A DNA stretch of 38,161 nucleotides from Candidatus Paceibacter sp. (GTDB taxonomy: Bacteria > Patescibacteriota > Patescibacteriia > Magasanikbacterales > UBA922). Shown here in pieces: positions 3,225-38,096 of the stretch (positions within the stretch are counted from its first letter, which is position 1; every line of letters begins with the position of its first letter). The position numbers and the translations under genes were made by a program. The notes under the pieces were generated by a model. The model worked only from the letters and a program-made list of their open reading frames with translations, did no database searches and was not told the DNA's origin. The DNA lies in NCBI GenBank assembly GCA_020725175.1, contig DYFM01000013.1, positions 1 to 38,161 of the forward strand, written 5' to 3'.

Positions 3225-6200
3225 ATGCCAACGTTCAAACGTCAGCCGACGAAAGAGCAAGAACGAAAGTTCTTCACCGACCTCAAGAGCGCGATCCCAA
3301 ATCCGGATCTGATTGAGGTACAAAAAGATTCCTACGCGTGGTTTTTCCGCGAGGGAGTAAAAGAATTGTTTGAGGAAATTTCTCCAATAACCGACTTTAC
3401 CGGTCGAGATTTGGAATTGTATTTTGAAGACTATTATATTGATGAACCGAAATTTGACGAGGTAACTTGTCGTGAAAAAAATATTACCTTTGAGGCGCCA
3501 CTTCGAGTAAAAGTACGACTCGTGAATAAGCGAACACAAAAAGAAATGACGCAGGAAATTTATTTGGGCGATATTCCGGTCATGACTCCACGAGGTACCT
3601 TTATGATCAATGGTATTGAACGTGTGGTAGTTTCTCAGCTCATCCGCAGTGCCGGAGCATTCTTTACGGCTGACGCTGTCCGAGGACGTCGCTATTATGG
3701 TGCTAAAATAATCCCAAATCGAGGGGCGTGGATAGAGGTGGAAACTGATCAAAACAACGTGCTTTGGATTAAGGTTGATCGCAAACGTAAGGTGGCAGCT
3801 ACCGCATTGCTTCGTGCATTTGGAATGAGTGACAATGAAACAATCATGAAAGCGTTTGCTGATGTAAATACGCATCCGAATATTGATTTTGTCGAGGCAA
3901 CGTTGAAAAAAGATGTTTCGACCACAGAAGAAGAAGGTTTGGTAGAAGTGTATAAGCGTATTCGCCCGGGAGACCTCGCGACAGCGGACAATGCCAAAGG
4001 CTTGATTCATGCCATGTTCTTCAACTTCGATCGATATGATTTGGGGCGTGTTGGTGTATACAAGTTTCATACCAAGTTTGCACTTGGTCTCAAGAACGAA
4101 GATTTTGATTCAAAGGAACAACGAGTTTTGTCGCTTGATAAATTGTTACTCGTGTTAAAAGAAGTGGTACGATTGAATGTCACCCAAGAAGAGCCGGATG
4201 ATATTGATCATTTGGGTAATCGTCGTATTCGCGCGGTTGGGGAACTTGTGCAAAACCGCTTCCGTATTGGTTTGGCTCGCATGGAACGTATTATCAAGGA
4301 TCGTATGAGTACGTATGAGCTAGACAGTTTGCAACCAAACAAACTGATCAACGCGCGGCCGGTCATTGGATCTGTTCGAGAGTTTTTCATGAGTTCACAG
4401 TTGTCGCAGTTCATGGATCAGATCAACCCATTGGCTGAACTCGAACACAAACGCCGGGTGAGTGCGCTTGGTCCGGGAGGTCTTGCTCGAGATCGTGCCG
4501 GTTTTGAAGTGCGAGATGTACATACCACTCACTATGGCCGTATTTGTCCGATTGCGACTCCGGAAGGACCAAATATCGGTCTCGTTGGACACTTGTCAAG
4601 TTATGCGAAGATGAATTCTTTTGGATTTGTGGAGACACCGTACCGACGTGTTATTAATCAAGTACCAAATGAAGCCCGGTTTACTGAAGGGGAAATTGCG
4701 CGGGAAGATATTGATGGCGTAGTAAAAGCTGGTGAGACGATTACTAAAGAGATAGCAAGTAAGCTCGAAAAAAATAAAGAGCTGAAAACGGTGTTGGTAA
4801 AAGCACGAGTAACCAATGAAGTGGTTCACTTGAATTCATTTGAAGAAGAACGAACCATTACTGCCGCGGCAACCACGACGATTGATAAAAACGGATACTT
4901 TGTTGATGAACGTGTGCCGGCTCGGTACCATGGTGAACCATCGACTATTGAAGTAGATAAAATTGAATACTTGGATGTAGCGTCCAATCAAATTTTGAGT
5001 ATCGCGACCAGTTTGATTCCATTTTTGGAACATGATGACGCGACTCGTGCGCTCATGGGAACAAACATGCAACGTCAAGCTGTGCCATGTATTACTCCGG
5101 ACGCGCCATTGGTTGGTACCGGCGTTGAGCGAGTAGCCGCGGAGAATAGTGGCTACGTTGCGTTGGCGGAAGAAGATGGTGAGGTCACGGCAGTTGATTC
5201 AGATCATGTAGAAATTACCGGAAAAAAAGGTACGGTCTATACATATCAATTGAATAAGTTTATCCGATCAAACGCTTCGAGTTGTATCAACCAACGTCCA
5301 CTCGTTACCTTGGGGCAAAAAGTCAAAAAAGGTGATCCGCTTTGTGATGGTCCTTCCACTGCCGGTGGAGAACTGGCTCTTGGGCAAAACGTCTTGGTGG
5401 CATATATGGTGTGGGATGGATACAATTATGAAGACGCGATTATTATTTCTGAACGGTTGGTGCAAAAAGATCGCTACACTTCCATTCATATCGAAGACTA
5501 TGTTACCGACATTCGTGAAACCAAGCTGGGACCGGAAGTGGTGACCAGTGATATCCCAAACGTGAGTGAAGAAAAGTTGAAGAATTTGGATTCAGAAGGA
5601 ATTGTGCGAGTAGGAGCGGAAGTGCATTCCGGTGATATCTTGGTAGGAAAGATTACGCCAAAAGGTGAAACTGAGTTAACGCCGGAAGAGAGATTGCTGC
5701 GCGCGATCTTTGGTGAAAAAGCACGTGATGTGCGTGATTCATCACTGTATCTCGAACACGGTGAACACGGAAAAGTCATCAACGTGCGCGTGTTTTCCAC
5801 GGAAGAAGGTAGTAAGCTTCAGCCGGGAGTGAATAAGCAAGTTCAAGTGACCATTGCTGACATGCGCAAGATTCAAGTCGGTGACAAGATGGCGGGACGT
5901 CACGGGAACAAGGGTGTTATCTCCCGCGTAGTACCGGTAGAAGACATGCCGTTTTTGGAAGATGGAACTCCGGTTGATATTATTTTGTCTCCACTCGGTG
6001 TCGTGTCTCGTATGAACTTGGGACAGCTTCTTGAAACGCACTTGGGTCTAGCTGCCAACGCACTTGGCTATCGAGCTGCTACTCCAACCTTGAATGGTAT
6101 TACCGAAGAGCAAATTAAGGCGGAACTGGAAAAAGCCGGCTTCCCAACGGATGGACAAATGCAGCTCTTTGACGGTCGAACCGGTGAACCATTTGATAAC

Positions 6201-6635
6201 AAGACAACAGTCGGTTACAACTACATGCTCAAGTTGAACCATATGGTGGAAGATAAAATTCATCAACGATCGATTGGTCCATACAGTTTGATTACCCAGC
6301 AACCGCTGGGAGGTAAAGCACAGTTTGGTGGACAGCGGTTTGGAGAAATGGAAGTGTGGGCACTGGAAGCCTATGGTGCGGCACATACCTTGCAAGAAAT
6401 TTTGACAATTAAATCCGACGACGTCCCAGGTCGGTCAAAAGCTTATGAAGCAATTATCAAGGGACAGCCAATTACTCGCGTGAATTTGCCGGAGTCGTTT
6501 AATGTCTTGGTGAAAGAATTGAAGGGACTTTGTCTCGATGTGCAACTGCTCAAAGAACAAAACGGTGAATTGGTCGAAGCGGGTGAGGAAACAGAAGAAG
6601 AACGTGATGTTGAGACTGTTGAAGTAGGGAAATAA
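3225..6635 (+). CDS. rpoB: DNA-directed RNA polymerase subunit beta
   Basis: 1136 aa ORF with RpoB motifs (ATPEGPNIGLVGHLSSYAKMN, GDKMAGRHGNKGVIS, GGKAQFGGQRFGEMEVWALEAYGA). Confidence 0.98.
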   Translation: MPTFKRQPTKEQERKFFTDLKSAIPNPDLIEVQKDSYAWFFREGVKELFEEISPITDFTGRDLELYFEDYYIDEPKFDEVTCREKNITFEAPLRVKVRLVNKRTQKEMTQEIYLGDIPVMTPRGTFMINGIERVVVSQLIRSAGAFFTADAVRGRRYYGAKIIPNRGAWIEVETDQNNVLWIKVDRKRKVAATALLRAFGMSDNETIMKAFADVNTHPNIDFVEATLKKDVSTTEEEGLVEVYKRIRPGDLATADNAKGLIHAMFFNFDRYDLGRVGVYKFHTKFALGLKNEDFDSKEQRVLSLDKLLLVLKEVVRLNVTQEEPDDIDHLGNRRIRAVGELVQNRFRIGLARMERIIKDRMSTYELDSLQPNKLINARPVIGSVREFFMSSQLSQFMDQINPLAELEHKRRVSALGPGGLARDRAGFEVRDVHTTHYGRICPIATPEGPNIGLVGHLSSYAKMNSFGFVETPYRRVINQVPNEARFTEGEIAREDIDGVVKAGETITKEIASKLEKNKELKTVLVKARVTNEVVHLNSFEEERTITAAATTTIDKNGYFVDERVPARYHGEPSTIEVDKIEYLDVASNQILSIATSLIPFLEHDDATRALMGTNMQRQAVPCITPDAPLVGTGVERVAAENSGYVALAEEDGEVTAVDSDHVEITGKKGTVYTYQLNKFIRSNASSCINQRPLVTLGQKVKKGDPLCDGPSTAGGELALGQNVLVAYMVWDGYNYEDAIIISERLVQKDRYTSIHIEDYVTDIRETKLGPEVVTSDIPNVSEEKLKNLDSEGIVRVGAEVHSGDILVGKITPKGETELTPEERLLRAIFGEKARDVRDSSLYLEHGEHGKVINVRVFSTEEGSKLQPGVNKQVQVTIADMRKIQVGDKMAGRHGNKGVISRVVPVEDMPFLEDGTPVDIILSPLGVVSRMNLGQLLETHLGLAANALGYRAATPTLNGITEEQIKAELEKAGFPTDGQMQLFDGRTGEPFDNKTTVGYNYMLKLNHMVEDKIHQRSIGPYSLITQQPLGGKAQFGGQRFGEMEVWALEAYGAAHTLQEILTIKSDDVPGRSKAYEAIIKGQPITRVNLPESFNVLVKELKGLCLDVQLLKEQNGELVEAGEETEEERDVETVEVGK

Positions 6636-6800: not shown

Positions 6801-6830
6801 CCCGCCCGAGGCGGGTCCGCCTTGGGCGGA
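6801..6830. repeat. 30-nt double-hairpin element, copy 1
   Basis: CCCGCC-CGA-GGCGGG followed by TCCGCC-TTG-GGCGGA; opposite orientation to the copies at 25045 and 25118. Confidence 0.85.
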
Positions 6831-6848: not shown

Positions 6849-9800
6849 ATGTCCCGAGATACACTTCATTCAATGGACTTCAACGCGCTTCTTCTCAAGG
6901 TAGCGTCACCAGAAGTCATCAAAGAATGGTCGTTTGGTGAAGTAAATAAACCCGAAACGATCAACTATCGAACCCAAAAACCGGAAAAAGGCGGGTTGTT
7001 TGCCGAAGAAATTTTTGGACCGACTAAAGATTGGGAATGTTACTGTGGCAAGTATAAAAAAATTCGTTACAAGGGAATCGTTTGTGATAAGTGTGGTGTG
7101 GAAGTTACACACTCCTTGGTTCGTCGTGACCGGATGGGGCACATCTCTCTGTCTTCTCCGGTAACCCATATTTGGTTTTTGCGATCAATTCCTTCCAAAA
7201 TCGGTTTGATTCTTGACTTATCGATTCAGGCACTGGAAAAAGTGATTTACTTTGCTTCTTTCATTATTACCTCTATCGATGAGGCAGGGGTGAAAGAAAC
7301 GCATGACGCGTTGAAAAAAGAATTTAAATCAAAAACAAAACAGATTGAACATGAGTTTGATCAAAAAGTGAAACAAGCCAATGACTCGAAAGCGGGAAGT
7401 GAGGCGTTGGAACAACTGGCGAAAGAACGTGATCGAAAGCTGCAAGCTTTGCAAGAAGAATTTGATGGCGCGGAACGAGATTTGAAAGATATTCGCATGT
7501 TGTCAATTGTTTCAGAAAATCGATATCAAGAATTGTCTTTGCGCTACGGTCACTTGTTTGACGCGGAAATTGGTGCGGGAGCAGTTCGAAAACTGCTTGA
7601 GTCATTGGATCTGGAAGAAACCGCGAAACGACTAGATAAAGAAATTGAAACCGCCAAGGGTGCAAAACGTGAACGATTGGTACGTCGCGTAAAACTTTTG
7701 AAAAATTTACACCACAATCATATTCGTCCAGAATGGATGGTACTCACTACTATTCCGGTTATTCCACCGGATCTTCGACCAATGGTCGCGCTTGATGGGG
7801 GCCGATTTGCCACCAGTGATTTGAATGATTTGTACCGTCGCGTGATCAACCGCAACAATCGTTTGAAACGCTTGCTTGAGCTCAATGCGCCGGAAGTCAT
7901 TTGTCGAAATGAAAAACGCATGTTACAAGAAGCAGTCGATGCGCTGATTGACAACAACGCGCGTGCCAGTAAGACCGTTACCGCTTCTACCGGTCAAAAA
8001 CGACAGCTCCGATCATTGGCAGATATTTTGAAAGGAAAACAAGGTCGTTTCCGCCAGAATTTGCTTGGAAAACGAGTGGATTACTCCGGTCGTTCGGTTA
8101 TTGTGGTTGGACCAAAATTAAACATTGATGAGTGTGGGTTGCCAAAACGCATGGCACTTGAGCTTTTCAAACCGTTTGTGATGGCAGAAATTATTAAACG
8201 AGAGTTGGCACACAATGTTCGTAGCGCTTCTCGTTTTATCGAAACCAACGCTCCGGAAGTATGGGATATTTTGGAAGATTTGACGACCAAAACCCGTGTT
8301 TTGTTGAACCGGGCACCGACACTCCACCGTCTTGGTATTCAAGCGTTTCGTCCTCGACTTGTGGAAGGAAAAGCGATTCGGTTGCACCCGCTCGTGTGTC
8401 CGGCGTTCAATGCAGACTTTGATGGAGATCAGATGGCGGTACACTTACCTTTGACGGAAGAAGCTAAGTGGGAAGCGGACAATTTGATGGCTGCAGAAAA
8501 AAATATCTTGAAGCCAGCGACCGGTTCTCCGGTAACTACGCCACAGCAAGATATCGCGCTTGGTTGTTATTACCTCACGAAGTATAATGAGAATGATGTT
8601 GAAGAAAGTAAAAAATATTTTTCCAATATTACGGAAGCATCATTTGCGTATAAAGCACGGAAAATTACACTTAAAGAGCGAATTGTGGTGCGATTTGAAG
8701 ACATGTCTCGTTTTCCGGAAGGAACCAGTCCGCTCGTTGAAACATCGATTGGAAGAATTTTCTTCAATGAGATTTTGCCAAACAAACTGGCATTCTACAA
8801 TGAAACGATTACAAAAAAGCACTTGAGTGCCATCATTCAGCTGTTGCTTGAATACTATGGACAAGAGGAGACCGCGCGCGTTCTTGATCGATTGAAAGCA
8901 CTTGGATTTAAATATGTTACCAAATCGGGATATTCGCTCGGTATGGATGACTTTGGTCATATTGAACAAAAGAAAGCCTTGCTTGAAGAAGGTGACGTGC
9001 GCATTCAGCAGGTAGAAGAACAGTTCCAAGAAGGGTTGCTCACTGACTCCGAACGACACAGTAAAGTGCTCGAAATTTGGACGGAAGTGAAAGACCGAGT
9101 GGTTTCTCATAACAAAGAAGCATTGGACAAAGACAAATCGGTGTTTGCGATGATTGACTCGGGAGCGCGTGGTTCATGGGGCCAGCTAGGTCAGGTTATT
9201 GGTATGAAAGGGTTGGTAGCTTCACCAAGTGGAGAAATTATTGAATTACCGGTCAAAGGAAACTTTAAGGAAGGATTTGAAGTGCTTGAATTCTTCATCT
9301 CAAGTCATGGTACCCGAAAAGGGTTGTCTGATACTGCGCTTCGTACCGCGAACGCCGGATACTTGACGCGACGTCTCGTGGATGTGGCGCAAGATGTTGT
9401 TGTCACCCAAGAAAACTGTGGTGATACGGTTGGTGAAGTGTTTACCAAAGAACAGTCGGAACAAATGGGTCAGCAACTTTCTGATCGTGTGGTCGGACGT
9501 TTTGTTCTCGAAGATGTGGTGGCGGATGGTGAGGTACTGGTACGTGCCGGAGAAGTCATTACCGAAGAGATCGCTCGTCAGATTGCAAAACGCGGAGTAA
9601 CCTCTGTGCATGTACGAAGTGTATTGCAGTGTTTGTTGCCAAAAGCGGTGTGTGTCCAATGTTATGGGTATGATTTGGCACATAATAAAACGGTCAAAAA
9701 AGGTGTGGCGGTAGGTATAATGGCTGCGCAATCTATTGGTGAGCCAGGTACCCAGCTTACCATGAGAACCTTCCATCTTGGTGGTGTCGCCGGTGGTGGG

Positions 9801-10730
9801 GATATTACTCAAGGGTTGCCTCGGGTAGAAGAACTGTTTGAAGCGCGCACCCCAAAACGAAAAGCTGTATTGTCGGAAGTTGCCGGAACGATTGAAATTG
9901 AAGACGCGGACGGCAAAGTGATCACCAACAGTCTTGGTCGACGTATTTTTGAAGGCCGTCGTGGACAAAAAATTATCAAAGTTCACTTTGAGGGATTGGA
10001 TGAGGAGAAAGTTAAGGTAAAACGAGTTGATGAGGTACGTGTCACCGACGGACAAAAAGTAAAGAAAGACGACGTTCTCTTGGTTCGTGGTGGGTCCGGT
10101 GAAGAAGTGAAGGCAGAGTATACCGGAAATGTGCGTGTTCAAGGATCAGAAATTATCTTGAGTTACGAAGGAAAGCATGCTAAGGAATACATTATTCCGC
10201 TTGGGTACAAACTGTTTGTGAAAGACGGTGAGACAGTGGAAAAAGGGCAGCAGTTGACCGAGGGTGCGGTAGACCTCCATGAACTCTTTGCGCTCAAGGG
10301 TCGAGACGCGGTACAACGCTATATTCTCCAGGAAATTCAGGATATTTATGCGTCGCAAGGTCAGCGTTTAAACGATAAACATGTGGAGATTATCATCAAA
10401 CAGATGTTTAGTCGTATTTACGTCGAAGATCCGGGCGATACTGAACTACTACCAGGTGAAGTGGTAGAACGAGCACAGTTGGTTCACGCCAATACTGAAG
10501 CAAAGAAAGATGGTCGAAAAGAAGCGGTCGGACGAGAACTCTTCCTTGGTATTAGTAAAGTTTCGTTGTCGACACAGAGCTTCCTTTCTGCTGCGTCGTT
10601 CCAGGAAACCTCAAAGGTTCTGATCAACGCGGCTATCTCCGGTCGAGTGGATCCACTCGAGGGGCTCAAAGAAAACGTTATTATCGGACGATTGATTCCA
10701 GCTGGAACCGGATTTCAGGATAAGGAGTAA
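6849..10730 (+). CDS. rpoC: DNA-directed RNA polymerase subunit beta'
   Basis: 1293 aa ORF with the catalytic motif [15 protein letters not shown], Zn-finger [20 protein letters not shown], and [18 protein letters not shown]. Confidence 0.98.
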   Translation: [1293 protein letters not shown]

Positions 10731-12663: not shown

Positions 12664-15600
12664 ATGGCAGAATCAATCAAACAACATATGGTACGCCAGC
12701 GAGTCATGTATTTGTTCTTTATGCTTGTAGGAACAATTGCGCTCGGGCTGTATCTTTCTTTATTTCAACCGTTTCAAACGCAGGCGGCAGTGAGCAGTGT
12801 TGGTGTTACTGATAATGACACTGCTAACTATGGAATCACCGGCGCCGATATTTCACTCCAAGCGACAGTATCCGGAGAAACTCCGGCCGGTTTTCAGGCG
12901 CTTGGCGTATTTATTGCTCCTAGCTCATCGGTAATTACCGCTGAAAACTACAATTCTACCGGCTGTGAAGGCGCGCCATGTAAAAGTCTCAAGATGTATC
13001 CCGCGTATCAGTCAATCAATGAAACTCTTCCTTCAGCTATTTCCTTTAATAGTGGAGGGAACGCATTTGTTTCCGGGACGCAGTATGTGGCGTGGATTAT
13101 GACCGTGGCTAATGTGGTTGAGTTGGTTTCTTCCTCACCATTTACCTTTAGTCCTGATCTTGATGTGCCGGACAACCAAGCGCCCTTTGTGATGCACATG
13201 AACGCCGTGAAGACTGTGGAGAATACAACGGCGTATCTTTATGCCAATATTTTTGATGATCAGACCACCTTTGCTCAGTTTGCGGATACCGGTGATGGTC
13301 GAAATGAATATGTGCGTGCGGTAGTGTGGGACGAAAGTGATGGAGTGGGAAGCGCTACTACAGTTACTGGAACCCCTTTTGCAAACGCTTTTTTTGAATT
13401 TGGTATCTCTTCTAGTATTGTTGGAGCGGCGGGAAATAGTGTCAATTACTATCTTGTAGCCACCGATCATGCCGGTAATACACGGTATTTTTGTAATTCT
13501 TCAAGCGCAGCCAGTGCGGGCGATTGTCAGGCGGCTCCGTTTAAAATAGTGGTAGTTGCAGCCGGAGCACGAACGATTTCCGGTGTGGTAAAGGATATGG
13601 ATGTTAATCAGGCCTACGGGAATGGAGCGGCGGTTTTTATCGGTGGTTTTGGTCATCGAGCGGTTACTACTACAGCCAATACCGGAGAGTATCAGTTTAG
13701 CAGTATTCCGGACAATAGTCAGGTGGAAATTTTTGCCTCTGCCCAAAACTATTGCCCCAATAGTCGCTTTGAAAGTGTTTCTACAGCTAATCTAACAGAC
13801 ATTGACATTTCAATTAAGCTTGGACTTTGTGGTGGTGGAGGAGAGGGTGGTTCAGGTGATGCTCCGTTTGTGACATTCTCTGGTCCTCAGGATAATTCGT
13901 CGTTTATTCCAATTACAGAGCGAATTCGAGTGGGAGTAAGTCAGCCGATGCAAGCCAGTTCGATAGATGGTTCTGGAACCGGAAACGTGTACCTTACCCC
14001 AGATGACGGAGCAACCAAAATTGCCGGTACAGTTAAGTACTGTGCCAATCAGGCATCAAGTGGTTGTGATTGGATTCCATCTCAGGACCAGCAAGTGATT
14101 ACCTTTACTCCGAGCAGTAATCTCTCGACGAGTACGAAGTATACACTTGTCATCAAAGAAAATGTTCTGGCTGAAAACGGAAAATCCATCTCAGGTAATC
14201 GTCCCGGGGGAGGACATACTCTTACTTTCACTACCCAAGGCGATACGGTAAACTTTGGTGATGGTGGTCCTACCTTTGGTGATGGTGGGCAGTACATGCC
14301 TCCGTTTGTGCGTTCCATGCAGCCGGCTCCGGGGCAAAAGGCAGCCCTGGATACGAATATTTTACTTGAGTTCAATGAGCCGTTGAACTCGGGCACGCTG
14401 ACAAATGCAATTACACTGTACAATATCACCGATAATCAATCAGTCAGTGCTGTGGTGACACTTGATAATAATGAAAAACGGTATGTCACAATCAATCCGG
14501 ATGACAATTTAACTACCGGGAAAGAGTATGAAGTGCGGGTACTTGGTGCGGTTGCCAATGTCAGTGGTGTTACGATGCGTCGACCGGAAGAAACCGCTCA
14601 GGTTGCGTTTAGTTCTTCTTTCAAAGCAGATAGTTCTGTTTCAGGCGCTTCGCCGACCATTTCTCCAAAATATAGTAACAATGCTACCGGCGTACCGGTC
14701 AATACGATTTTTGAATTTGGATTTAATAAGCCGATGGATGTTACAACGATCAATAGTGCCAATATTAGTTTAAAACGAGGATCAACCGCCGTATCTTTGG
14801 AATCGCATTTTGATCCGGCATCCAACTTGTTGTCAGTCATGCCGATCAATGTACTCTTGCCAAATACCGTATATACCATCACTTTGAGTACCTCAGTAAA
14901 AACGCTTACCGGGGCCGCTATATCTGAAACTACCTTCACGTATACTACCGGAGACGCAGATACACAGGTGCCTACAGTTCTTGAAACTAGATGTGATGAC
15001 TTTACTTGTCGAGTAGCCTTTAATGAACGCATGAATACTAAAGCATCGACTGATATTACCGGATTTACGAAAAGTGTTTTAAACCACGAAAACTTTATTT
15101 TGTCTCATGGGATGAGTCAAGATGTGGTGCAAAGTTCGGCCTTCTTTGAATATGATCCGAAAGCCAATGCGGTACTTATTCGAAATCTGCAACTAACACC
15201 AGGAGAAACCTTTTCCATGACCGTAACTTCTACGGCCGCTGACGTGTCGGACAACAGCTTAGGATCTTCTCTTACTCTCAATGGTACGGTAGAGTCCAGT
15301 TCGCAAACATTTGGTTTTGGAGATGATGGAGGAATGTTTGGTCCTCCAAAACCGGCTTTCTTTGGTGACGGAGGGCAAGTTGGTGGGGGAGAATTTAAAC
15401 CAGAAGGCTTTGGTGGTTTTACCGGTGAGCAATTTGCTATGGGGCAAGCGGATATGGCTTTTCCATTCAACCCGACTGCCGGACAAGATAGTAATGTGTT
15501 TCAAGTTCGCTTTAATCCGGGGGTTGCGGTAGCAAATGCTAATGTCATCCGATTGACCTTCCCCAACGGAACCGATACTTCCGGAGCCATGAGTGATACC

Positions 15601-18600
15601 TATTCTCCGTTTATAAACGATCTTAATGGACTTGGTACTGCAAATGGTACAGTTACGATTGCAAGTGTCGATGCGTCAGTGGCAAGACAGGTAGATATTA
15701 CGTTGGGAGTGAGTGGTACGACCACCAGTACCGATACGTACACGATTGATTTACGTCGCATCATCAATCCGTCTATCCCTAAAGACCTTTCCACCGGTGG
15801 ATACACAGTTGGATTGAAACTATTGCAATCCGGTACAGCTGTCGCGAGTAAGACAAGTGTTCCTTACTTCATTAAGTCAGCCGGAAGCAATTCCATTACC
15901 GTACGTGTCTATGCGGGTAGTGTAGATTCACCGGATAACGTATCCGGAAGTCTTTTTCTGTACGGTGGTGGGCCGTCTGGACCAATGGACAAACTTCTTA
16001 CTCTTTCTGCCGGTGCGGTGGCACAGGTAAATGGATCAAATGCGACGAGTGTTCAATATACCAACTTGTCTGATGGCTGTTATTTTGTGGGGACAGAGCC
16101 GTATATTCGCTTGGGAAGTACCGATTATTATGGACAAAAAACTTTTGAGCCAATTTGTGTCTCCGGATCGCAATCAGCAACAAAAAATATCATTCTTACG
16201 TCATCTGATAGTACGGATACCATAGATGTGACAGTAAAAATTCAGGGCGTAAATTTCAATGGACGAGATATTGATGTGTTTGCCGGTGGGCCGGGAAATT
16301 TTGTGGTAAAAACGCTCTCTGCGGTTGGGGATACCTCTGTTACACCTACCAGTACTGTTCTCAAATTACCAAGTAATGGAAACTGGTTTATTGGTGTAGG
16401 TCCGGCTATGGAAAAAAGTGCGTCTAGTCAAACCGCAAAACCAAAAGCTTTGGCTGGTGTTCCACCGGCACCGGTCAACATGCTGGTGAGCAATCTTGGG
16501 CAAGTAGGGGAAGATATTACTACCGGGTTTGGGCAGCTTCCGCAAGGCGTGAGTTTTGATGGCGCGACCAACGCACTTACTTTTACCTTTACTTCGGCAA
16601 ACGTTAGTGTGAGTGGAAGTGTCAAAGATAATAGTGGAAACGCTATTCAAAACGCCGAAGTGATGCTGCATCGAAATGGTTTTGGTCAACCGGTATTTAC
16701 TCAGTCAGACTCAAATGGAAATTTCACCTTGAACGTGGCGCAAACCGGAAATTATGAAATTGGTGCATACAAAGAAGGGTTTCCATCCGTGAACAAACAA
16801 ATTGAAATTCGTCAAAGCGGGGAGTCTACCGCCGTATACATGAATGGTCAACAAATTACCGGTCAAAATCCATTGGTACTCAAAATGAAAAAGGCTGACT
16901 ATTATATTGCCGGAAAAGTATTGGACGCGAATAATAATGCCATTCAATACGCGCCGGTCTTTGCGGTGGATGCCAATGGAAATACTACGTTTGGCCAATC
17001 CGGTTCTGATGGTAGTTACACGATCTTTGTTGCTAATGGTACCTATAGTTTGCGCTCGGAATTGCCACCAGACAAATCTGATGCTTGCGGTACCTTGAGT
17101 CTTACGGGTGTAACCGTGAGTGGAGCCAATAAAACCAATCAAAATATAACCCCGACCGCTTCATCTTGTGTCACTTTGAGTGGTTCGGTAAGTGTGGGTG
17201 GAAATGGATTATCGAATGTTCCGTTGTTTATTGAAGAGTGGAACACAGACTCAAACGCGCCGGTTGCCGGCGGAGTAAAACGCCCGGCTTCAACCGATAG
17301 CTCAGGAGCGTATTCTGCGAAAGTTGTGGATGGAAAAACCTATCGAGTTGGAACCTGGCATCCGGATTATGGTGAGCTTGGTGCTACTGTTGTGGTAAGT
17401 GGAAATACCACCGGCAATGTCACCGTAGCATCGCTCAGTACAGTAACAGTAAGTTTTACCGGAAGTGATGATCTTTCGAGCATGAATGCCTTTTTGGAAA
17501 TAAAGAAAGGTGATGACACGACCAAACGAATCGGAAAACAACTAAGCAATTTGAGTAGCAATTCAACCGTGAGTGTACCAGGAAATGGCACCTACAATTA
17601 TTTTGTCGATGTCTTTGGGGTAATGAAAGCAACCGGTACGGTATCGGTGGCGGATGGTACGGGTACCATTACCGTGGATCTTGGTAACTCGAGTTTGGTT
17701 ACAGTTACCGGAACAATTAAGGACGCTAGTAATACTGCTTTGGCCGGTGCCTTGGTCACCTTTACCAACGATGATACGGGTGTGGTGCAGACCGCACTTA
17801 CCAATAGTAGTGGTGAATATTCCGTCAGTATAAAGGCGGGGGATTATAAAGTAGGCTCTTCGCTCAACGGGTATGTGGCGGGAGACGCGGCTACCAGTAC
17901 TTCATTTAGTGCGGATACTTCAGCCTTTGATTTTGCTTCCGGTGAAGATCGTGAGCCATTGACGGTTGCCAATCGAGTTATATCTGGAACCATAAAAGAT
18001 TATGGAAATGCCACCACCAGTGAAGGGTATGTTTGGGCAACAAACGCCACAACCGGCGTAGTGGTAAAAACGGCGCTTGATTCTGATGGAACTTACGAAT
18101 TACCGGTAACGGATGGAAGTTGGGTGGTGGGCGCGGCAGCTCCACTCAATGACGTGACTACGTCTTCTCAAGCGGTAGTAGTGAGTGGAAGTAATGCCAC
18201 CCAAAATATTACCCTGACAGAGCCGGCAAATGTGGCCAACAAAATGACCACATCGACTAGCGGAATCGTAGCCGGAAATACCGGAGGAAGTGTCAATGAT
18301 AGTGAAGGGAGTGGTATCAAGGTGACTGCTGGTGCAGGAGTCTTGCAAACCGGATCAGGAAATGTCACTCTCAATTTAGAACGAAGTTATACTGCGCCTG
18401 ACTCCGAACAATTCACTCCACTTGCCAACGCAACCTTTGATATTACTGCTACCGGGAATTCTACGATTAAAAATTTGAATGGAAATGTGGAAATTCAAAT
18501 TTCTTATGATGATATTGTTTCCGATTTACCGGCCAATGTAAATGAATCAGATTTGAAACTGATGTACTACTCACCGGAAACAGGAGACTACATCCCGGTA

Positions 18601-20343
18601 GAAGGCGGGTTTACTGTTGACCCTGCAAATAATACCATTAGCGGGCAGGTGGATCACTTTACCGAGTTTGTGGTGGCGTATGTTCCTTCGGCAAGTGTGG
18701 CGGGAAACAATGGTGGTGGAGACGGCGGAAATAATGGTGGAAACAACGGCGGTGGGGGCGGAGGCGGCGGAGGTAGTTCAAGTATCACACCGCCTACTGT
18801 GCCAAGTGTACCGCCGACGACTGAAGCGATTACTATTGATCAAGTTTATGAAGTGAACTCTTCAACTCCAGTACAGTTTGGAAGTGTCGTACATACGATT
18901 ACCGTAGTGGCCGCAACTGACGCGGAAGCGACAATAGTGATAGCATCTACACCGGTAACAACTACTTTACAAAAAGGTGAGACCAAGGAGGTAGATACGA
19001 ACGCAGATGGGTATGCAAGTTTACAGGTGACATATTACGGTCTTGATGAATCTGGAAAAGCAAAATTGAACATTATTACGATTGCAGACGAAGGAGAACG
19101 TGCGGGTCCGCTCACCATCAATGATGGGCAGTATGGAACAGTGACTACCTCTGTCACCTTGTTTATGAAAGCAACCGGTGCAACCCACATGATGATTTCT
19201 CACTCGCCGAAATTTACCGGTGCAAAGTATGTGCCGTACACCGCCACCACTACCTGGACATTGACCTCAGGAGATGGTGAAAAAACAGTGTATGTGCGGT
19301 TTAAGTCAGCTTCCGGTGGAACTGTTGATGTTAAAGATACAATTCAGTTGTATGGGCAGGGATTTGATCAAAAACCGATTGAAACACCGACGAGCACTAA
19401 AGATCAAGTGGAAACACCTGAGAAAGCGACTGTTAGTTGTCCACTGACCATTGGAAAAGCATATAAATCGGCAAATTCACCGGCTGTCTTCTATGTTACC
19501 GCGCCGTTTGGTGGTGGTGACACCTGTACCAAACGTCCATTTAGTCGTTCTGCTGTGTTCTTTACCTACTTCTCTTCATGGAGCCAAGTTCAGGTGGTTT
19601 CGAAAGATGTTCTTCAGAGTATTAAAACAGACGGACTTGGTTTTATGCCATGGGGACCAAAGTTTAATCCACAATATGGCGCGCTTATTAAGTCTGTTCA
19701 TGATCCAAAAGTATATTTACTGATTAACGGAGAAAAACGCTGGATTGAATCGGAAGAAGCCTTCCAACATATTGGATATTCTTGGGATTGGGTTGAGGAT
19801 GTGGATCAAGCACTCTTACAATCTTACCCAACCGGCTCTACAATTACGAGTGAATCTGGTTTACCTAGTGGTCTTCTCATTAAGTATAGCGGTTCACCAA
19901 AAGTATACTTACTCAGTGATGACTCGCTCGTAATTGGAAAACAAGTCAAACGTCACATTGTATCAGAATCTGTCTTTTTGGGACTTGGATATCGGTGGGA
20001 TCGAATTGTGACAGTGCCAACTTCAGTGGAGTTTGCGGATGGGAGCGTTCTTTCTAGCGGTCTGGGAGTAAAAAAGACCGAGAATTCTTCCGGTACACAA
20101 ACACCTGCTCCGGTGAGTTCGTACATCTTTACTCAGTACTTAAGTGCCGGAATGACCGGTGAAGAGGTAAAACAGTTGCAGCTGGTACTCAAGGCACAAG
20201 GGTTTTTAAGTTCGGGAGTGAATCCAACCGGTTACTATGGTCCGGCAACCACGGAAGCGGTCAAAAAATTTCAAGCTGCCAAAGGAATTCAACCGTTGGG
20301 AGTTGTAGGGCCGAGCACCAGAGCAGTCCTGAATACTCTCTAG
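12664..20343 (+). CDS. Giant (2559 aa) secreted surface protein with SbsA/Big-like and carboxypeptidase-regulatory-like domains and a C-terminal peptidoglycan-binding domain
   Basis: N-terminal signal/TM segment; Big_5-like segments (FVTFSGPQDNSSFIPITERIRVGVSQPM; FNKPMDVTTINSANISL); CarboxypepD_reg-like segments (SGSVKDNSGNAIQNAEVMLHRNG); Gly/Asn linker; C-terminal PG_binding_1-like segment (LSAGMTGEEVKQLQLVLKAQGF...GYYGPATTEAVKKFQAAKGI). Confidence 0.85.
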   Translation: MAESIKQHMVRQRVMYLFFMLVGTIALGLYLSLFQPFQTQAAVSSVGVTDNDTANYGITGADISLQATVSGETPAGFQALGVFIAPSSSVITAENYNSTGCEGAPCKSLKMYPAYQSINETLPSAISFNSGGNAFVSGTQYVAWIMTVANVVELVSSSPFTFSPDLDVPDNQAPFVMHMNAVKTVENTTAYLYANIFDDQTTFAQFADTGDGRNEYVRAVVWDESDGVGSATTVTGTPFANAFFEFGISSSIVGAAGNSVNYYLVATDHAGNTRYFCNSSSAASAGDCQAAPFKIVVVAAGARTISGVVKDMDVNQAYGNGAAVFIGGFGHRAVTTTANTGEYQFSSIPDNSQVEIFASAQNYCPNSRFESVSTANLTDIDISIKLGLCGGGGEGGSGDAPFVTFSGPQDNSSFIPITERIRVGVSQPMQASSIDGSGTGNVYLTPDDGATKIAGTVKYCANQASSGCDWIPSQDQQVITFTPSSNLSTSTKYTLVIKENVLAENGKSISGNRPGGGHTLTFTTQGDTVNFGDGGPTFGDGGQYMPPFVRSMQPAPGQKAALDTNILLEFNEPLNSGTLTNAITLYNITDNQSVSAVVTLDNNEKRYVTINPDDNLTTGKEYEVRVLGAVANVSGVTMRRPEETAQVAFSSSFKADSSVSGASPTISPKYSNNATGVPVNTIFEFGFNKPMDVTTINSANISLKRGSTAVSLESHFDPASNLLSVMPINVLLPNTVYTITLSTSVKTLTGAAISETTFTYTTGDADTQVPTVLETRCDDFTCRVAFNERMNTKASTDITGFTKSVLNHENFILSHGMSQDVVQSSAFFEYDPKANAVLIRNLQLTPGETFSMTVTSTAADVSDNSLGSSLTLNGTVESSSQTFGFGDDGGMFGPPKPAFFGDGGQVGGGEFKPEGFGGFTGEQFAMGQADMAFPFNPTAGQDSNVFQVRFNPGVAVANANVIRLTFPNGTDTSGAMSDTYSPFINDLNGLGTANGTVTIASVDASVARQVDITLGVSGTTTSTDTYTIDLRRIINPSIPKDLSTGGYTVGLKLLQSGTAVASKTSVPYFIKSAGSNSITVRVYAGSVDSPDNVSGSLFLYGGGPSGPMDKLLTLSAGAVAQVNGSNATSVQYTNLSDGCYFVGTEPYIRLGSTDYYGQKTFEPICVSGSQSATKNIILTSSDSTDTIDVTVKIQGVNFNGRDIDVFAGGPGNFVVKTLSAVGDTSVTPTSTVLKLPSNGNWFIGVGPAMEKSASSQTAKPKALAGVPPAPVNMLVSNLGQVGEDITTGFGQLPQGVSFDGATNALTFTFTSANVSVSGSVKDNSGNAIQNAEVMLHRNGFGQPVFTQSDSNGNFTLNVAQTGNYEIGAYKEGFPSVNKQIEIRQSGESTAVYMNGQQITGQNPLVLKMKKADYYIAGKVLDANNNAIQYAPVFAVDANGNTTFGQSGSDGSYTIFVANGTYSLRSELPPDKSDACGTLSLTGVTVSGANKTNQNITPTASSCVTLSGSVSVGGNGLSNVPLFIEEWNTDSNAPVAGGVKRPASTDSSGAYSAKVVDGKTYRVGTWHPDYGELGATVVVSGNTTGNVTVASLSTVTVSFTGSDDLSSMNAFLEIKKGDDTTKRIGKQLSNLSSNSTVSVPGNGTYNYFVDVFGVMKATGTVSVADGTGTITVDLGNSSLVTVTGTIKDASNTALAGALVTFTNDDTGVVQTALTNSSGEYSVSIKAGDYKVGSSLNGYVAGDAATSTSFSADTSAFDFASGEDREPLTVANRVISGTIKDYGNATTSEGYVWATNATTGVVVKTALDSDGTYELPVTDGSWVVGAAAPLNDVTTSSQAVVVSGSNATQNITLTEPANVANKMTTSTSGIVAGNTGGSVNDSEGSGIKVTAGAGVLQTGSGNVTLNLERSYTAPDSEQFTPLANATFDITATGNSTIKNLNGNVEIQISYDDIVSDLPANVNESDLKLMYYSPETGDYIPVEGGFTVDPANNTISGQVDHFTEFVVAYVPSASVAGNNGGGDGGNNGGNNGGGGGGGGGSSSITPPTVPSVPPTTEAITIDQVYEVNSSTPVQFGSVVHTITVVAATDAEATIVIASTPVTTTLQKGETKEVDTNADGYASLQVTYYGLDESGKAKLNIITIADEGERAGPLTINDGQYGTVTTSVTLFMKATGATHMMISHSPKFTGAKYVPYTATTTWTLTSGDGEKTVYVRFKSASGGTVDVKDTIQLYGQGFDQKPIETPTSTKDQVETPEKATVSCPLTIGKAYKSANSPAVFYVTAPFGGGDTCTKRPFSRSAVFFTYFSSWSQVQVVSKDVLQSIKTDGLGFMPWGPKFNPQYGALIKSVHDPKVYLLINGEKRWIESEEAFQHIGYSWDWVEDVDQALLQSYPTGSTITSESGLPSGLLIKYSGSPKVYLLSDDSLVIGKQVKRHIVSESVFLGLGYRWDRIVTVPTSVEFADGSVLSSGLGVKKTENSSGTQTPAPVSSYIFTQYLSAGMTGEEVKQLQLVLKAQGFLSSGVNPTGYYGPATTEAVKKFQAAKGIQPLGVVGPSTRAVLNTL

Positions 20344-21506: not shown

Positions 21507-24458
21507 TTACGCAATATACTTGCGATATTTGTTTGCCAAGATTCCCGTCCATACTGCCGCGACAGCAACACTACTGCTAAAGAGCCAGCGAAGCCAGTCT
21601 GGAATTTCCTCGTCTGCTTCTTCGGTTTGCGCGATCGTGACTGTTTCACTTTGTTCAGTATTTGGACTGGTGGTTGGAATGACTTCCTCTTCTTCAGTAT
21701 TGGTGTCCACCGCTTCGTTTGTTGGAGTAGTGATTGGTGGTACAAAAACTGGAGTTGTTGGGGTAATCACTGGAGTTACCGGAGTGGTTGGGGGGGTAGG
21801 AGGAACCGTTGGTGGGGTAGTGGTAGGTGCTCCGGTAGAAGGGGTAGTGGTTGGGCTACCAGGGTCTTCATCGGTTGGCAGGCTCACTACCGTTACTTCA
21901 GTTGAAGTGGTTGCCTTGGCTTGGTTTGAATCTTGTACCGTGAGGGTGATGGTATATACGCCGGATGTTGTATAAGTGTGGGTGTATACGCCGTCCCAAG
22001 TAGAAAGTTCGGTACTAGTACCATCGCCAAAGTTCCATGAGAAAAAGATAGTGTTGTTGTCTGGATCAAAACTCTGGGTTCCGTCTACGGTCAGTGTTTC
22101 GCCGGTGACGATTGGGTTCAATTCCAGTGGTTTAATGATTGCTACTGGTGGGTGATTGATAATAGGTGCTCCGCCGCCACCGCCACCATTATTTCCTCCG
22201 GCATCTCCACCTTCGTTATTTCCTCCGTTGTTGCCACCATTCCCTTCATTGTTGCCATTGTTACCTCCGTTATTGCCGCCATTTTCTTCTTCAGAATCAG
22301 TAGTGGCGGTGACTACAAAGGTATCGGAAGTATGAAGAATAGTGCCTGTTTGTGTATCTACCATCGCAATCTGATAGGTTCCGCTAGTAAAATTCTCGAG
22401 AGAAGTCGTATAGGCTCCATTTTCTCCGGTAGGGGTAAAGGGTGCGTCTTCAGCCACTATTACTTCTTCAGCACCTATTTCCAATGTATACAAGCGGAAA
22501 GAAGCGTGTGCTGGAAGGTCTGCTATTATAGTTTCGCCATTTTCTCCAGTTTGAATAGTGGTCGAGAAAGAAAGTGATTCTTCTGAAGTGTAACTTTCTT
22601 TCAATCCAGTAGTACTTCCTGCTCCTATTGTTAGCGTGGTTGATGAAAGTTCTGTTTCATTGTATAGAAGCGTGAAGAGGTGTTGACCGAGTGTTGTAGA
22701 AGGTGAGATGGTGAGTGTGTAGTTTCCGGGTGTTGCCATATTTTTGGAAAACACTTCAGTCGACAGATCTGTGCCTGTTGGATCAGTGGTCTCTACAGCC
22801 GATTGTATTGGATGTGAATTGATAAGTTCACCATTTGCGGTGTATTGAAACGCGGTAGTCAATATCACGTTTAGTGTCTGGCTGATTGGTCGTAATACGA
22901 TATTATCGGTAACTGTATCGGTGATAGTTCCGGAGATTACAGTGTTGTCGATCGTAAATGTTTCTTGGATATTGGTATCGCTTGCTTCTGTTGGGTACAC
23001 GAAGATACGATAGGAAGTACCATATGTGTAAAAGGCATCATTGTCTGGAATGAAGATACTATAGATTCCAGTTTGCTCATCTAATTCATATGATACAGTA
23101 CGCTCTTCATCAATAGTATTGTCACCATTTTTATCTACACCAATAATAACTGTTGTTACTGCTGGTGCCGGTGTAGATGGTTCTTCTACACCATTTATGA
23201 TGTCGTAAAAGAAAAAGGTTAAATTGTCTCCTAGTTGTACCGTATCATCTACACTGAGCGCATACAAAAATGGTTCCGGAGCTTCTTCGACGGTAAAAAG
23301 AACATATTCAGTTGAGGAGTTATTTTCGTTTGGCAATAGTGTGAGATACGTGCTCGTATCATTCCAGGTGGGGTGAATCTTTATCCCGTATGTGCCGGTA
23401 GAAAAACTTGGTTCACTGACAGTAAATTGGTATGTTCCGTTGGTATCAAGTGGTTGAACTTCCGCGATGGTAGGCTCTGTTCCGATAACGTTATCAACGA
23501 CCGGATAGATAGAAATTTTTGCGCTATCGAGAGTCAGGTTGGTCACTGTGTTTTCGTCACTTCCGTATGCAGTGACAAACGTGACGGTATCGCCAATATT
23601 GATTGTTCCTTCGTCTGAAAAAGAGATTTGACCTACTGTTGGGTTAATTACTGTATAGGTAAGTGTTTGGTCTGGGACTTTCGTTTCTCCTTCGTCCGTT
23701 ACAGTGTACAGGTCTACCGTATATGTTCCCACTTCATTGGCAGCAATAATAAATGTTCCATCTTCATTCATGATGATGTCTGTTCCTACTGTGAGTTTAG
23801 TTTCTCCTTGGTAGAGGGCTATGTCACTGGCAGTATCAGTAGAAAATGATCTGGTTGTTTCATCGCTGTACGTGATGGTGATAGCTGTAGTCATGTATGC
23901 CCCTGGAGAGACGGTATATGATGTGGGTGAAGTGAATTCGGCTGTTGTAGCAACTACCACTTCTTCGGTTACTTCCTCAGACACGGTAAACTGGTTAAGG
24001 CGATACCCGCCAGTTTCTGTCAGTGAATACATCACGTAGTATGTACCGGTAGCTAGTTCAGCTGGAAGTTGGTATGAATAAATACCCTCAGCTGATGCGG
24101 TTATTTCTCCCGGACCAAGATACGCTACGTTTGTTGATCCTAATGTTTCGGATGCGTCATAGGAGTTATCTCCATCAGTATCTTTATTAATACTTATAAA
24201 GTTAAACTCAGGTTGTGGGGTGAGTGGTTGACAGCCATCTACCTCGGTATTATCGTTGTAAAATGTTAATGTTTCACCAGGATATAAATCAATGTCTTCA
24301 ATAATCAATGAAGTTTGTTGTCCGTTGAAATCAGTTACCGGACAGCTTTCGGGTGCTGCGTGAACTACAATAGCTGTTTGTTGAAACCCAAATAACGCCA
24401 GTAACACTACGATTGCAACTTTTTTCCCCCCTTGTGTAAACCGTTTCGAGATGGTCAT
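21507..24458 (-). CDS. Secreted/anchored surface protein with PKD domain, Gly/Asn linker, Pro/Thr-rich stalk and C-terminal TM anchor
   Basis: Signal peptide KKVAIVVLLALFGFQQTAIVVHAA; PKD segment HPPVAIIKPLELNPIVTGETLTVDGTQSFDPDNNTIFFSWNFGDGTS...TYTTSGVYTITLTVQDSNQAKA; TM WLFSSSVAVAAVWTGILA followed by KYRKY. Confidence 0.85.
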   Translation of the reverse strand: MTISKRFTQGGKKVAIVVLLALFGFQQTAIVVHAAPESCPVTDFNGQQTSLIIEDIDLYPGETLTFYNDNTEVDGCQPLTPQPEFNFISINKDTDGDNSYDASETLGSTNVAYLGPGEITASAEGIYSYQLPAELATGTYYVMYSLTETGGYRLNQFTVSEEVTEEVVVATTAEFTSPTSYTVSPGAYMTTAITITYSDETTRSFSTDTASDIALYQGETKLTVGTDIIMNEDGTFIIAANEVGTYTVDLYTVTDEGETKVPDQTLTYTVINPTVGQISFSDEGTINIGDTVTFVTAYGSDENTVTNLTLDSAKISIYPVVDNVIGTEPTIAEVQPLDTNGTYQFTVSEPSFSTGTYGIKIHPTWNDTSTYLTLLPNENNSSTEYVLFTVEEAPEPFLYALSVDDTVQLGDNLTFFFYDIINGVEEPSTPAPAVTTVIIGVDKNGDNTIDEERTVSYELDEQTGIYSIFIPDNDAFYTYGTSYRIFVYPTEASDTNIQETFTIDNTVISGTITDTVTDNIVLRPISQTLNVILTTAFQYTANGELINSHPIQSAVETTDPTGTDLSTEVFSKNMATPGNYTLTISPSTTLGQHLFTLLYNETELSSTTLTIGAGSTTGLKESYTSEESLSFSTTIQTGENGETIIADLPAHASFRLYTLEIGAEEVIVAEDAPFTPTGENGAYTTSLENFTSGTYQIAMVDTQTGTILHTSDTFVVTATTDSEEENGGNNGGNNGNNEGNGGNNGGNNEGGDAGGNNGGGGGGAPIINHPPVAIIKPLELNPIVTGETLTVDGTQSFDPDNNTIFFSWNFGDGTSTELSTWDGVYTHTYTTSGVYTITLTVQDSNQAKATTSTEVTVVSLPTDEDPGSPTTTPSTGAPTTTPPTVPPTPPTTPVTPVITPTTPVFVPPITTPTNEAVDTNTEEEEVIPTTSPNTEQSETVTIAQTEEADEEIPDWLRWLFSSSVAVAAVWTGILANKYRKYIA

Positions 24459-24962: not shown

Positions 24963-25044
24963 ATCAACATATTTTTTCATTTTCCAATGATTTTTTAGAA
25001 ATTAGAGATTAGAAATTAGAAATTTTCAACACGACCCTGTAGTT

Positions 25045-25074
25045 TCCGCCCAAGGCGGACCAGCCTCGGGCTGG
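25045..25074. repeat. 30-nt double-hairpin element, copy 2 (within the D-arm region of the tRNA-Arg copy)
   Basis: TCCGCC-CAA-GGCGGA + CCAGCC-TCG-GGCTGG. Confidence 0.9.
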
Positions 25075-25117
25075 CAATGGATAGAACAAGAGCCTTCTAA
25101 GCTCTGGATCTAGGTTC

Positions 25118-25147
25118 CCCGCCCAAGGCGGGTCCGCCTCGGGCGGA
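25118..25147. repeat. 30-nt double-hairpin element, copy 3 (within the T-loop region of the tRNA-Arg copy)
   Basis: CCCGCC-CAA-GGCGGG + TCCGCC-TCG-GGCGGA. Confidence 0.9.
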
Positions 25148-25176
25148 GATTCCCAATAAACAACAAAATAACCCAC

Positions 25177-25247
25177 GTTCCCGTAGTTCAATGGATAGAA
25201 CAAGAGCCTTCTAAGCTCTGGATCTAGGTTCGATTCCTAGCGGGAAC
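25177..25247 (+). tRNA. tRNA-Arg (anticodon UCU)
   Basis: Acceptor GTTCCCG/CGGGAAC, anticodon arm AGAGC-CTTCTAA-GCTCT, T-arm CTAGGTTCGATTCCTAG. No CCA encoded. Confidence 0.95.
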
Positions 25248-25378
25248 ACAATAGCACAACCCCAAACAGGTTGTTTTTTGTATGATTATTTTCAAACACG
25301 AGCGGTTGTTCTCCTGCTGGTGTGTACAAAAATAGCATACAAAATATCTTATTTTAGCAAAAAACTCACCAATCACTC

Positions 25379-37763: not shown

Positions 37764-38096
37764 TAATATATCGGGGTGCACGCAAAGTGATTTGCTTTCT
37801 AGTTTTTTCGTTTATACAAAAAATAGTAAGATAGGATAAATAAAAATCGGCTTATAACGGTGAACCCGTAGTAGTTTGCAGCAAACTACCGGCAATACCG
37901 TGGGAAGTTTCCCGACATAGTTGGGATAACCCCGTAACGACTGACCCGAAAGGGGAGACTCTCTGAGTTTATCGAAGAGGGTAATACGCCGACTCTTGTC
38001 ACAAAACACTGAGATTATGCTCGTTATTTTAACGAGCTACCATCCAGGACAAGATGAAGATATAGTCTGCCCCATACGAAAGTATGGAACCATGTA
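37764..38096 (+). other. Group I-like self-splicing intron in 23S rRNA (site after U2500), no ORF
   Basis: Interrupts GGCACCT^CGATGTCGGCTC. P1: exon GCACCU pairs with IGS GGGUGC (37774-37779) with a U.G pair at the splice site. P7/S element AAGATATAGTC at 38057-38067. P9-like CCATAC-GAAA-GTATGG at 38072-38087. The 3' boundary is uncertain by 2 nt (G38094 or A38096). Confidence 0.88.

Follow-up and report, generated by a model that had tools for sequence, protein, structure and literature searches.

A tRNA-Arg copy interrupted by two double hairpins

The locus described here lies in the window, by which we mean the whole stretch of Candidatus Paceibacter sp. DNA that was analysed (38,161 nucleotides), and consists of a broken copy of a tRNA-Arg gene followed by an intact gene of the same kind. 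The broken copy carries two copies, E1 and E2, of a 30-nt element that we refer to as E, and one more copy of E lies elsewhere in the window. The features, with ^ marking insertion points here and throughout, are:

6801..6830, minus strand: third E copy of the window, between the RNA polymerase genes at 3225-6635 and 6849-10730; site CTTT^AGAC
25033..25044, plus strand: 5' piece of the split tRNA-Arg copy (tRNA positions 1-12), GACCCTGTAGTT against GTTCCCGTAGTT in the intact gene; acceptor 5' strand decayed
25045..25074, plus strand: E1, a 30-nt double hairpin between tRNA positions 12/13 (D arm), with two 6-bp stems and 3-nt loops; junction unambiguous
25075..25117, plus strand: core of the split copy, tRNA positions 13-55, anticodon UCU; 43/43 identity to the intact gene
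25118..25147, plus strand: E2, a 30-nt double hairpin of the E1 family, between tRNA positions 55/56 (T loop, GTTC^GATT)
25148..25153, plus strand: final 6 nt of the split copy, GATTCC (tRNA positions 56-61); end of homology
25177..25249, plus strand: intact tRNA-Arg(UCU), 23 nt downstream of the split copy (ARAGORN; Rfam RF00005, 71.6 bits)

Both E1 (TCCGCCCAAGGCGGA followed by CCAGCCTCGGGCTGG) and E2 (CCCGCCCAAGGCGGG followed by TCCGCCTCGGGCGGA) are built from two adjoining 15-nt hairpins, each with a 6-bp stem and a 3-nt loop. Removing them in silico restores GTAGTT^CAATGG and GGTTC^GATTCC, with the E1 junction falling within the D stem and the E2 junction within the T loop. The six bases that follow each element agree with the intact gene, and agreement of these 12 bases at a fixed offset has a chance probability of ~6e-8. 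Comparison of the junctions with the intact tRNA-Arg revealed no target duplication at either element, and the junctions cannot be slid, as the end bases of E1 and E2 differ from the adjoining target bases. The first-pass annotation, made from sequence alone, had described a tRNA-Arg copy split twice by 30-nt double hairpins without target duplication or deletion, and this description held to the base; only the 1-2 nt ambiguity that it had allowed at the insertion points did not. Its statements that the 43-nt core is identical to the intact gene (25075-25117 against 25189-25231, 100%) and that the acceptor ends have decayed around this unchanged core held as well, the 5' end reading GACCCTG in place of GTTCCCG and the 3' side diverging past GATTCC.

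The split copy is no longer recognized as a tRNA, with no tRNA match reported across it in an Rfam scan. E1 and E2 are predicted to pair with one another, forming a long rod that encloses the anticodon arm (−68.9 kcal/mol) and in which the cloverleaf is abolished. Matches to the first hairpin (CCGCCCAAGGCGG, at most two mismatches) number seven in the window against 0.29 expected, a count that none of 100 shuffles reached. The third E copy sits in a short AT-rich repeat.

Conservation of the double hairpin

The paired structure of E is conserved beyond the window. Across 20 copies, taken mostly from the nuclease cassettes described below, 98.3% of the stem cells are paired; compensatory double changes occur in six of the 12 pairs and one-sided changes in none, and the resulting covariation score was reached by 0 of 500 shuffles and by no slid control. 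With two adjoining hairpins conserved and a clean insertion into a gene without target duplication, E meets the structural criteria for a double-hairpin element.

E recurs in redundant tRNA copies

A pattern search found E at 25 places in the 1.24-Mb source genome, against none for the reversed pattern, and reading of the flanks showed that ten of these 25 break into sequence of tRNA origin: two in Arg(UCU), both in the window, two in Gln and one each in Arg(GCG), Thr(UGU), Thr(CGU), Pro, Val/Ile and Asn. More diverged copies of E are found in Glu and Arg(GCG) copies of the same genome. Near every E-split copy in the source genome, within ~350 nt, lies an intact tRNA of the matching kind. Altogether at least 13 E copies break redundant tRNA copies in this genome, at the same few positions and in both orientations, and many more do so in its relatives. 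When each intact tRNA was compared by blast with its own neighborhood, the breakpoints of partial copies clustered at 12/13 or 22-25, at 33-37 and at 55/56. An automatic test for tRNA sequence spanning the junction was positive at 18 of 76 E sites from the source genome and relatives; within the same stretches it was positive at only 12 of 3000 positions drawn at random and at 7 of 1301 TTYRA positions. Six additional tRNA-interrupting sites are clear by eye. The unbiased count remains the ten in 25, since the 76-site set includes stretches picked around tRNAs, and flank reading was limited to targeted stretches around tRNAs and E places rather than covering whole genomes.

The first-pass annotation had inferred that a small repeat inserts into DNA and had done so twice in one gene; this is supported, and it generalizes to the source genome and its relatives. 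In G031, which belongs to another genus of the same family, a tandem tRNA-Arg(UCU) copy is split by E at 12/13, and tRNA-Arg copies in G018 and G054 carry E in the same way. Of a third genus, G012 has a tRNA-Asp copy into which E has inserted at the same two points as in the window, 12/13 and 55/56; this copy is followed, after a 6-nt piece of the T loop, by an 85-aa GIY-YIG ORF and an intact tRNA-Asp. By analogy, the arrangement in the window would be that of G012 without the ORF. Empty sites are also common, as tRNA-Arg(UCU) lacks a partial copy in ~26 of 30 loci examined. When the named genomes were scanned for E seated between GTTC and GA, 20 contigs were returned, from Patescibacteria and Omnitrophota, about half of which are copies of tRNA 3' ends, mostly adjoining an intact tRNA. 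This T-loop E pattern had no match in the viral collection IMG/VR, and a viral origin of E is not supported.

The sites share a target consensus, TTY^RAA, which persists when tRNA sites are excluded. At the non-tRNA sites the left TY and the right RA are negatively associated (p = 0.009); because the two halves are seldom found together, the target appears to be one-sided, with E seated either way round, and a symmetric target was rejected. A weight matrix was built from 51 non-tRNA E sites and used to rank the real insertion point among 60 positions. The real point ranks first in most T-loop cases, that of E2 included, and anticodon-loop points also rank high. The D-arm point at 12/13 is not predicted (ranks 8-35 of 60), yet it recurs in ~13 loci. 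The target motif alone was therefore rejected as the source of the tRNA enrichment, given both the unpredicted D-arm site and the finding that only 0.5% of TTYRA-matched controls lie in tRNA copies. Gene conversion of a single E between tRNAs is unlikely, as the copies of E at one tRNA position differ in sequence and orientation.

Some other E copies also deserve mention. At four loci (L122, L128, L126 and L107) E lies within protein genes and is apparently read through in frame, its 30 nt amounting to ten codons; in G021 and G052, which belong to different families, E occupies the matching position of what is apparently one gene. In a tRNA-Ser remnant (L271, G052:C5) the second hairpin of an E has a further E within its loop.

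E is linked to one clade of small GIY-YIG nuclease genes

The picture of a single repeat landing in a tRNA copy is incomplete, as the split copy is one instance of a recurring arrangement that includes a GIY-YIG nuclease gene. Of the six GIY-YIG (PF01541) matches in the source genome, five have tRNA copies immediately on both sides: one each at Lys, Thr and Ile, and a tandem pair at Trp. Relatives show the same arrangement with a broken copy that carries E. Proteins linked to E make up a single group, ~55-72% identical regardless of the tRNA concerned, and the products of GIY-YIG genes whose remnants carry other palindromes are ~45% identical to them. Searches with the protein only identified nine members of this clade in 59 relatives and a further ten in a class-wide sample of 286 genomes. 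All 19 sit between a 5' tRNA remnant and the intact cognate tRNA, which begins no more than ~30 nt past the ORF in 18 of them, G196 having an extra remnant first. E is present in the remnant of 17 members; G020 has a variant double hairpin, and in G162 none was recognized. Thirteen of the members were found independently of E; 11 of these carry it and one has the variant. Neither E nor its like was seen at any of four more distant GIY-YIG genes examined. The short tail of tRNA sequence that follows E2 in the window has counterparts (~5-9 nt) in most of the cassettes. The tRNAs concerned are mostly tRNA-Ser, followed by Asp, Thr and Gln.

Genomes that contain the clade are also more likely to contain E. 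Copies of E outside the cassette occur in all eight relatives with the clade and in 15 of the 51 without it (p = 2e-4), and across the class E is present in 12 of 14 genomes with the clade compared with 110 of 272 without (p = 0.0013, the cassette's own E being counted); neither value is corrected for kinship.

The clade ORFs encode only 82-99 aa, so that the proteins scarcely exceed the GIY-YIG domain itself (PF01541 match of a cassette ORF, 1.9e-15). The catalytic residues Y3, Y5, Y16, G18, R26 and E62 (Y, YxG, R, E) are invariant, and among solved structures those closest in sequence belong to UPF0213 proteins and to an SLX1 homologue. Overlaps of ORF and tRNA, and tandem units, are found at cassettes of the source genome and relatives.

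Individual cassettes show further details. At L094 (G000:C21) a broken tRNA-Trp and an identical GIY-YIG ORF are repeated in tandem units with one intact tRNA-Trp at the end. A tRNA-Lys/GIY-YIG cassette is common to two genera (L069, G000:C18:279-686, and L184, G020:C21), and the hairpin TCCGTYARCYRACGGA in its broken tRNA-Lys copy shows a compensatory change; in G000 the ORF of this cassette runs into the remnant, with its stop codon within the palindrome.

A proposed origin of the split copy

Clean insertion, its recurrence, conservation of the hairpins and the linkage of E to one GIY-YIG clade are shown by the data above. What they suggest for the window, by analogy to G012, is that the split copy is a relic or non-autonomous version of a tRNA-seated GIY-YIG/double-hairpin cassette, a reading that we hold to be somewhat more likely than not. 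A full cassette would run from a 5' tRNA remnant carrying E, through a GIY-YIG ORF of 82-99 aa (in the UPF0213/SLX1-like size class), to an intact tRNA of the same kind a few bases on. The nuclease would most likely cut tRNA genes, like the tRNA-linked phage enzyme SegB, and repair would then duplicate the tRNA, leaving one intact copy for the cell and one redundant copy. The double hairpin would enter the redundant copy at arm and loop positions (12-15, 34/35 and 55/56), at or near the cuts, and its insertion would both disable that copy and remove the cut site. E would also move without the ORF, to TTY^RAA-like sites elsewhere. DNA cleavage by the clade is inferred, as are the role of the nuclease as the maker of the breaks and the entry or capture of E at them. 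For the window itself, the ORF may have been lost or may never have been there.

A comparison with the preferred motif of SegB, RAWTSGAAC (PMC13096335), bears on this reading. Its reverse complement, GTTCSAWTY, is, by our inference, the tRNA T-loop sequence, and the favorite point of E in tRNAs is GTTC^GAWT. E sites outside tRNAs match GTTCSAWTY at the junction well above their own flanks, at 5.6 of nine positions compared with 3.8, a value reached by 0 of 20000 permutations; two of three control motifs were also somewhat above chance, so base composition contributes. The overlaps of ORF and tRNA and the tandem units resemble, again by analogy, the amplification ascribed to SegB.

Several points count against the relic reading. 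The link between the window and a nuclease rests on analogy, as the window contains no GIY-YIG ORF; the D-arm 12/13 site is not explained by the target motif of E; and because E occurs in many genomes without the clade (110 of 272 class-wide), another mobilizer or a loss has to be invoked. In addition, tRNA copies harbor palindromes unrelated to E, some of them at the T-loop point that E uses, which leaves room for capture or selection of palindromes in place of movement by a single enzyme. A bolder version of the proposal, which we regard as no more than possible, makes E a cis-acting mobile unit, with the small GIY-YIG nuclease both cutting tRNA loops and mobilizing the double hairpin. If it were true, such hairpin repeats, which are common in Patescibacteria and have similar insertions into tRNA copies in Omnitrophota contigs, would be the non-autonomous offspring of tRNA-seated GIY-YIG elements, and their mobilization would use neither a Y1 nor a DDE transposase.

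Alternative explanations

The rival that deserves most attention, and that remains possible, treats E as a REPIN-like non-autonomous hairpin repeat that an HUH (Y1) transposase or an unknown enzyme mobilizes in single-stranded form, so that tRNA copies, linked to GIY-YIG genes or not, are merely tolerant landing sites whose T and anticodon loops suit a TTY target. A one-sided target is expected if an element inserts on the 3' side of a short motif and duplicates no target sequence, the T-loop and anticodon-loop sites score high in a matrix derived from non-tRNA sites, and the source genome has four PF01797 matches. Against this, a Y1 transposase is present in 11 of 23 genomes with E and in 9 of 36 without, which is no clear link, and the Y1 genes that were checked bear other terminal palindromes, not E; a Y1 (RAYT) enzyme as the obvious mobilizer was set aside on these grounds. 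The REPIN-like reading also leaves unexplained why E is near-constant in one GIY-YIG clade and why the 12/13 site is used repeatedly. A different explanation, which we consider unlikely, is that the hairpins were not placed by a specific enzyme and are kept by selection: any palindrome that breaks a spare tRNA would be favored, either by removing a nuclease target or by preventing the remnant from folding or being processed as a tRNA within the ORF transcript, and E would be just the commonest palindrome available. Several unrelated palindromes do lie in tRNA remnants, including those beside other GIY-YIG clades (Trp, Lys, Ile, Tyr, Thr), and the rod predicted for E1 and E2 would abolish the cloverleaf. 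However, E has also inserted into protein-coding genes and between genes, and there too at a defined target motif, which implies mobility of its own.

It is very unlikely that the split copy is functional, with the two blocks removed from the RNA in the manner of introns or simply tolerated. The unaltered core (positions 13-55) and intact anticodon arm are in its favor, but the acceptor strands have decayed, an intact copy lies 23 nt away and most other split copies are truncated. An Rfam scan gave no RF00028 (group I intron) match at 25000-25176, and a group I intron at the split copy was rejected on this basis. The first-pass annotation had left room for a chance mosaic or an assembly artefact, and the genome is indeed a draft of 33 contigs; this doubt is now all but excluded, being strongly opposed by the identical junctions that recur in other genomes and by the 12 flanking bases at fixed offsets.

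Relation to known systems

The closest parallel is with the free-standing GIY-YIG homing endonucleases of T-even phages. SegB of phage T6 is a tRNA-linked GIY-YIG endonuclease that cleaves within tRNA genes, and it drives tandem amplification of the tRNA together with its own gene, through recombination of the 3' end of that gene with the 5' end of the tRNA (PMC13096335). Like these enzymes, the nuclease gene of the cassette adjoins tRNA genes (the window itself excepted), tandem units of tRNA and nuclease gene occur, and the motif is of the T-loop type. On the SegB side, breaks have been mapped inside tRNA genes, and there is microhomology between the 5' end of the tRNA and the 3' end of the nuclease gene (PMC13096335). 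Measured against this class, the clade has the GIY-YIG motif and residues and is flanked by tRNA sequence in 19 of 19 members; cutting of an uninterrupted tRNA gene and spread by repair are inferred, their only support being the likeness of E sites to the SegB motif. Unlike SegB, the clade is found in bacterial (Patescibacteria-type) genomes, its ORFs are only 82-99 aa long, and the broken upstream tRNA remnant contains a conserved double hairpin, the T-loop E pattern being absent from the viral collection.

REPINs are doublets of REP sequences thought to be moved by Y1 transposases termed RAYTs (PMC3116915, PMC3733652). E resembles them in being short, non-autonomous, built of paired palindromes and dispersed in bacterial genomes, and differs in its absence from the Y1 gene ends checked, in the lack of a clear Y1 correlation and in its ties to a GIY-YIG clade and to tRNA copies. 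The mitochondrial double-hairpin elements of fungi and algae are likewise two adjacent GC-rich hairpins that insert into genes; unlike E they are organellar, and to our knowledge they have no dedicated nuclease partner in a tRNA cassette. Rickettsia palindromic elements and the very small mobile repeats of cyanobacteria are small palindromic repeats that lie in genes, including as in-frame insertions in proteins, and they differ from E in size, host and sequence, the last without direct comparison. The rRNA genes of CPR bacteria contain group I introns and other insertions, some with GIY-YIG genes (PMC11270868), which provides a similar host and mobile insertions in RNA genes, although E is no intron; the main text of that paper does not mention tRNA, palindromes or hairpins. 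We found no paper on the E family or its origin, and nothing that combines GIY-YIG, a tRNA gene and Patescibacteria, in the open-access PMC literature searched, and the combination of E with a tiny GIY-YIG gene in one cassette is likely to be undescribed.

Palindromic repeats are abundant in Patescibacteria-type genomes, and one family of them, E, is now tied to a specific nuclease clade and to highly conserved genes of the cell. The cassette suggests a way in which such hairpins may move, one that can be put to the test, and the intact tRNA left behind would be a built-in means of host survival. Parasitism of tRNA genes of the SegB type may extend from phages to bacterial chromosomes, and many of the broken tRNA copies of Patescibacteria-type genomes may be explained by the cassette.

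Other palindromes and neighboring features

A 20-mer palindrome unrelated to E, CCTGCCTGCCGGCAGGCAGG, is frequent in redundant tRNA copies (L016, L185, L218, L220, L250, L257, L260), and in Arg and His copies it occupies a T-loop point identical to that of E. TCCCGAT..ATCGGGA and other unrelated palindromes likewise occur in tRNA copies. At L070:1080-1480 and L072 (G000:C14:36300-36540), an intact tRNA-Val(GAC) and an intact tRNA-Glu(CUC) are each flanked by the inverted repeats TCCCGAT.../...ATCGGGA and lie within an older split tRNA of their own kind, as if a whole tRNA had inserted into a tRNA.

Group I introns were detected at two other places. At L087:6577-6854 (G000:C4:12576-12853) a tRNA gene is broken by one (RF00028, 76.2 bits), and upstream of it lie two tandem broken copies with TCCCGAC..GTCGGGA palindromes; in the window, 37799-38088 is a group I intron in a 23S rRNA gene (RF00028, 50.7 bits, barely above threshold). 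The window also contains two very large ORFs, at 12664-20343 (plus strand, 2559 aa) and 21507-24458 (minus strand, 983 aa), which are rich in repeats and linkers and resemble surface proteins.
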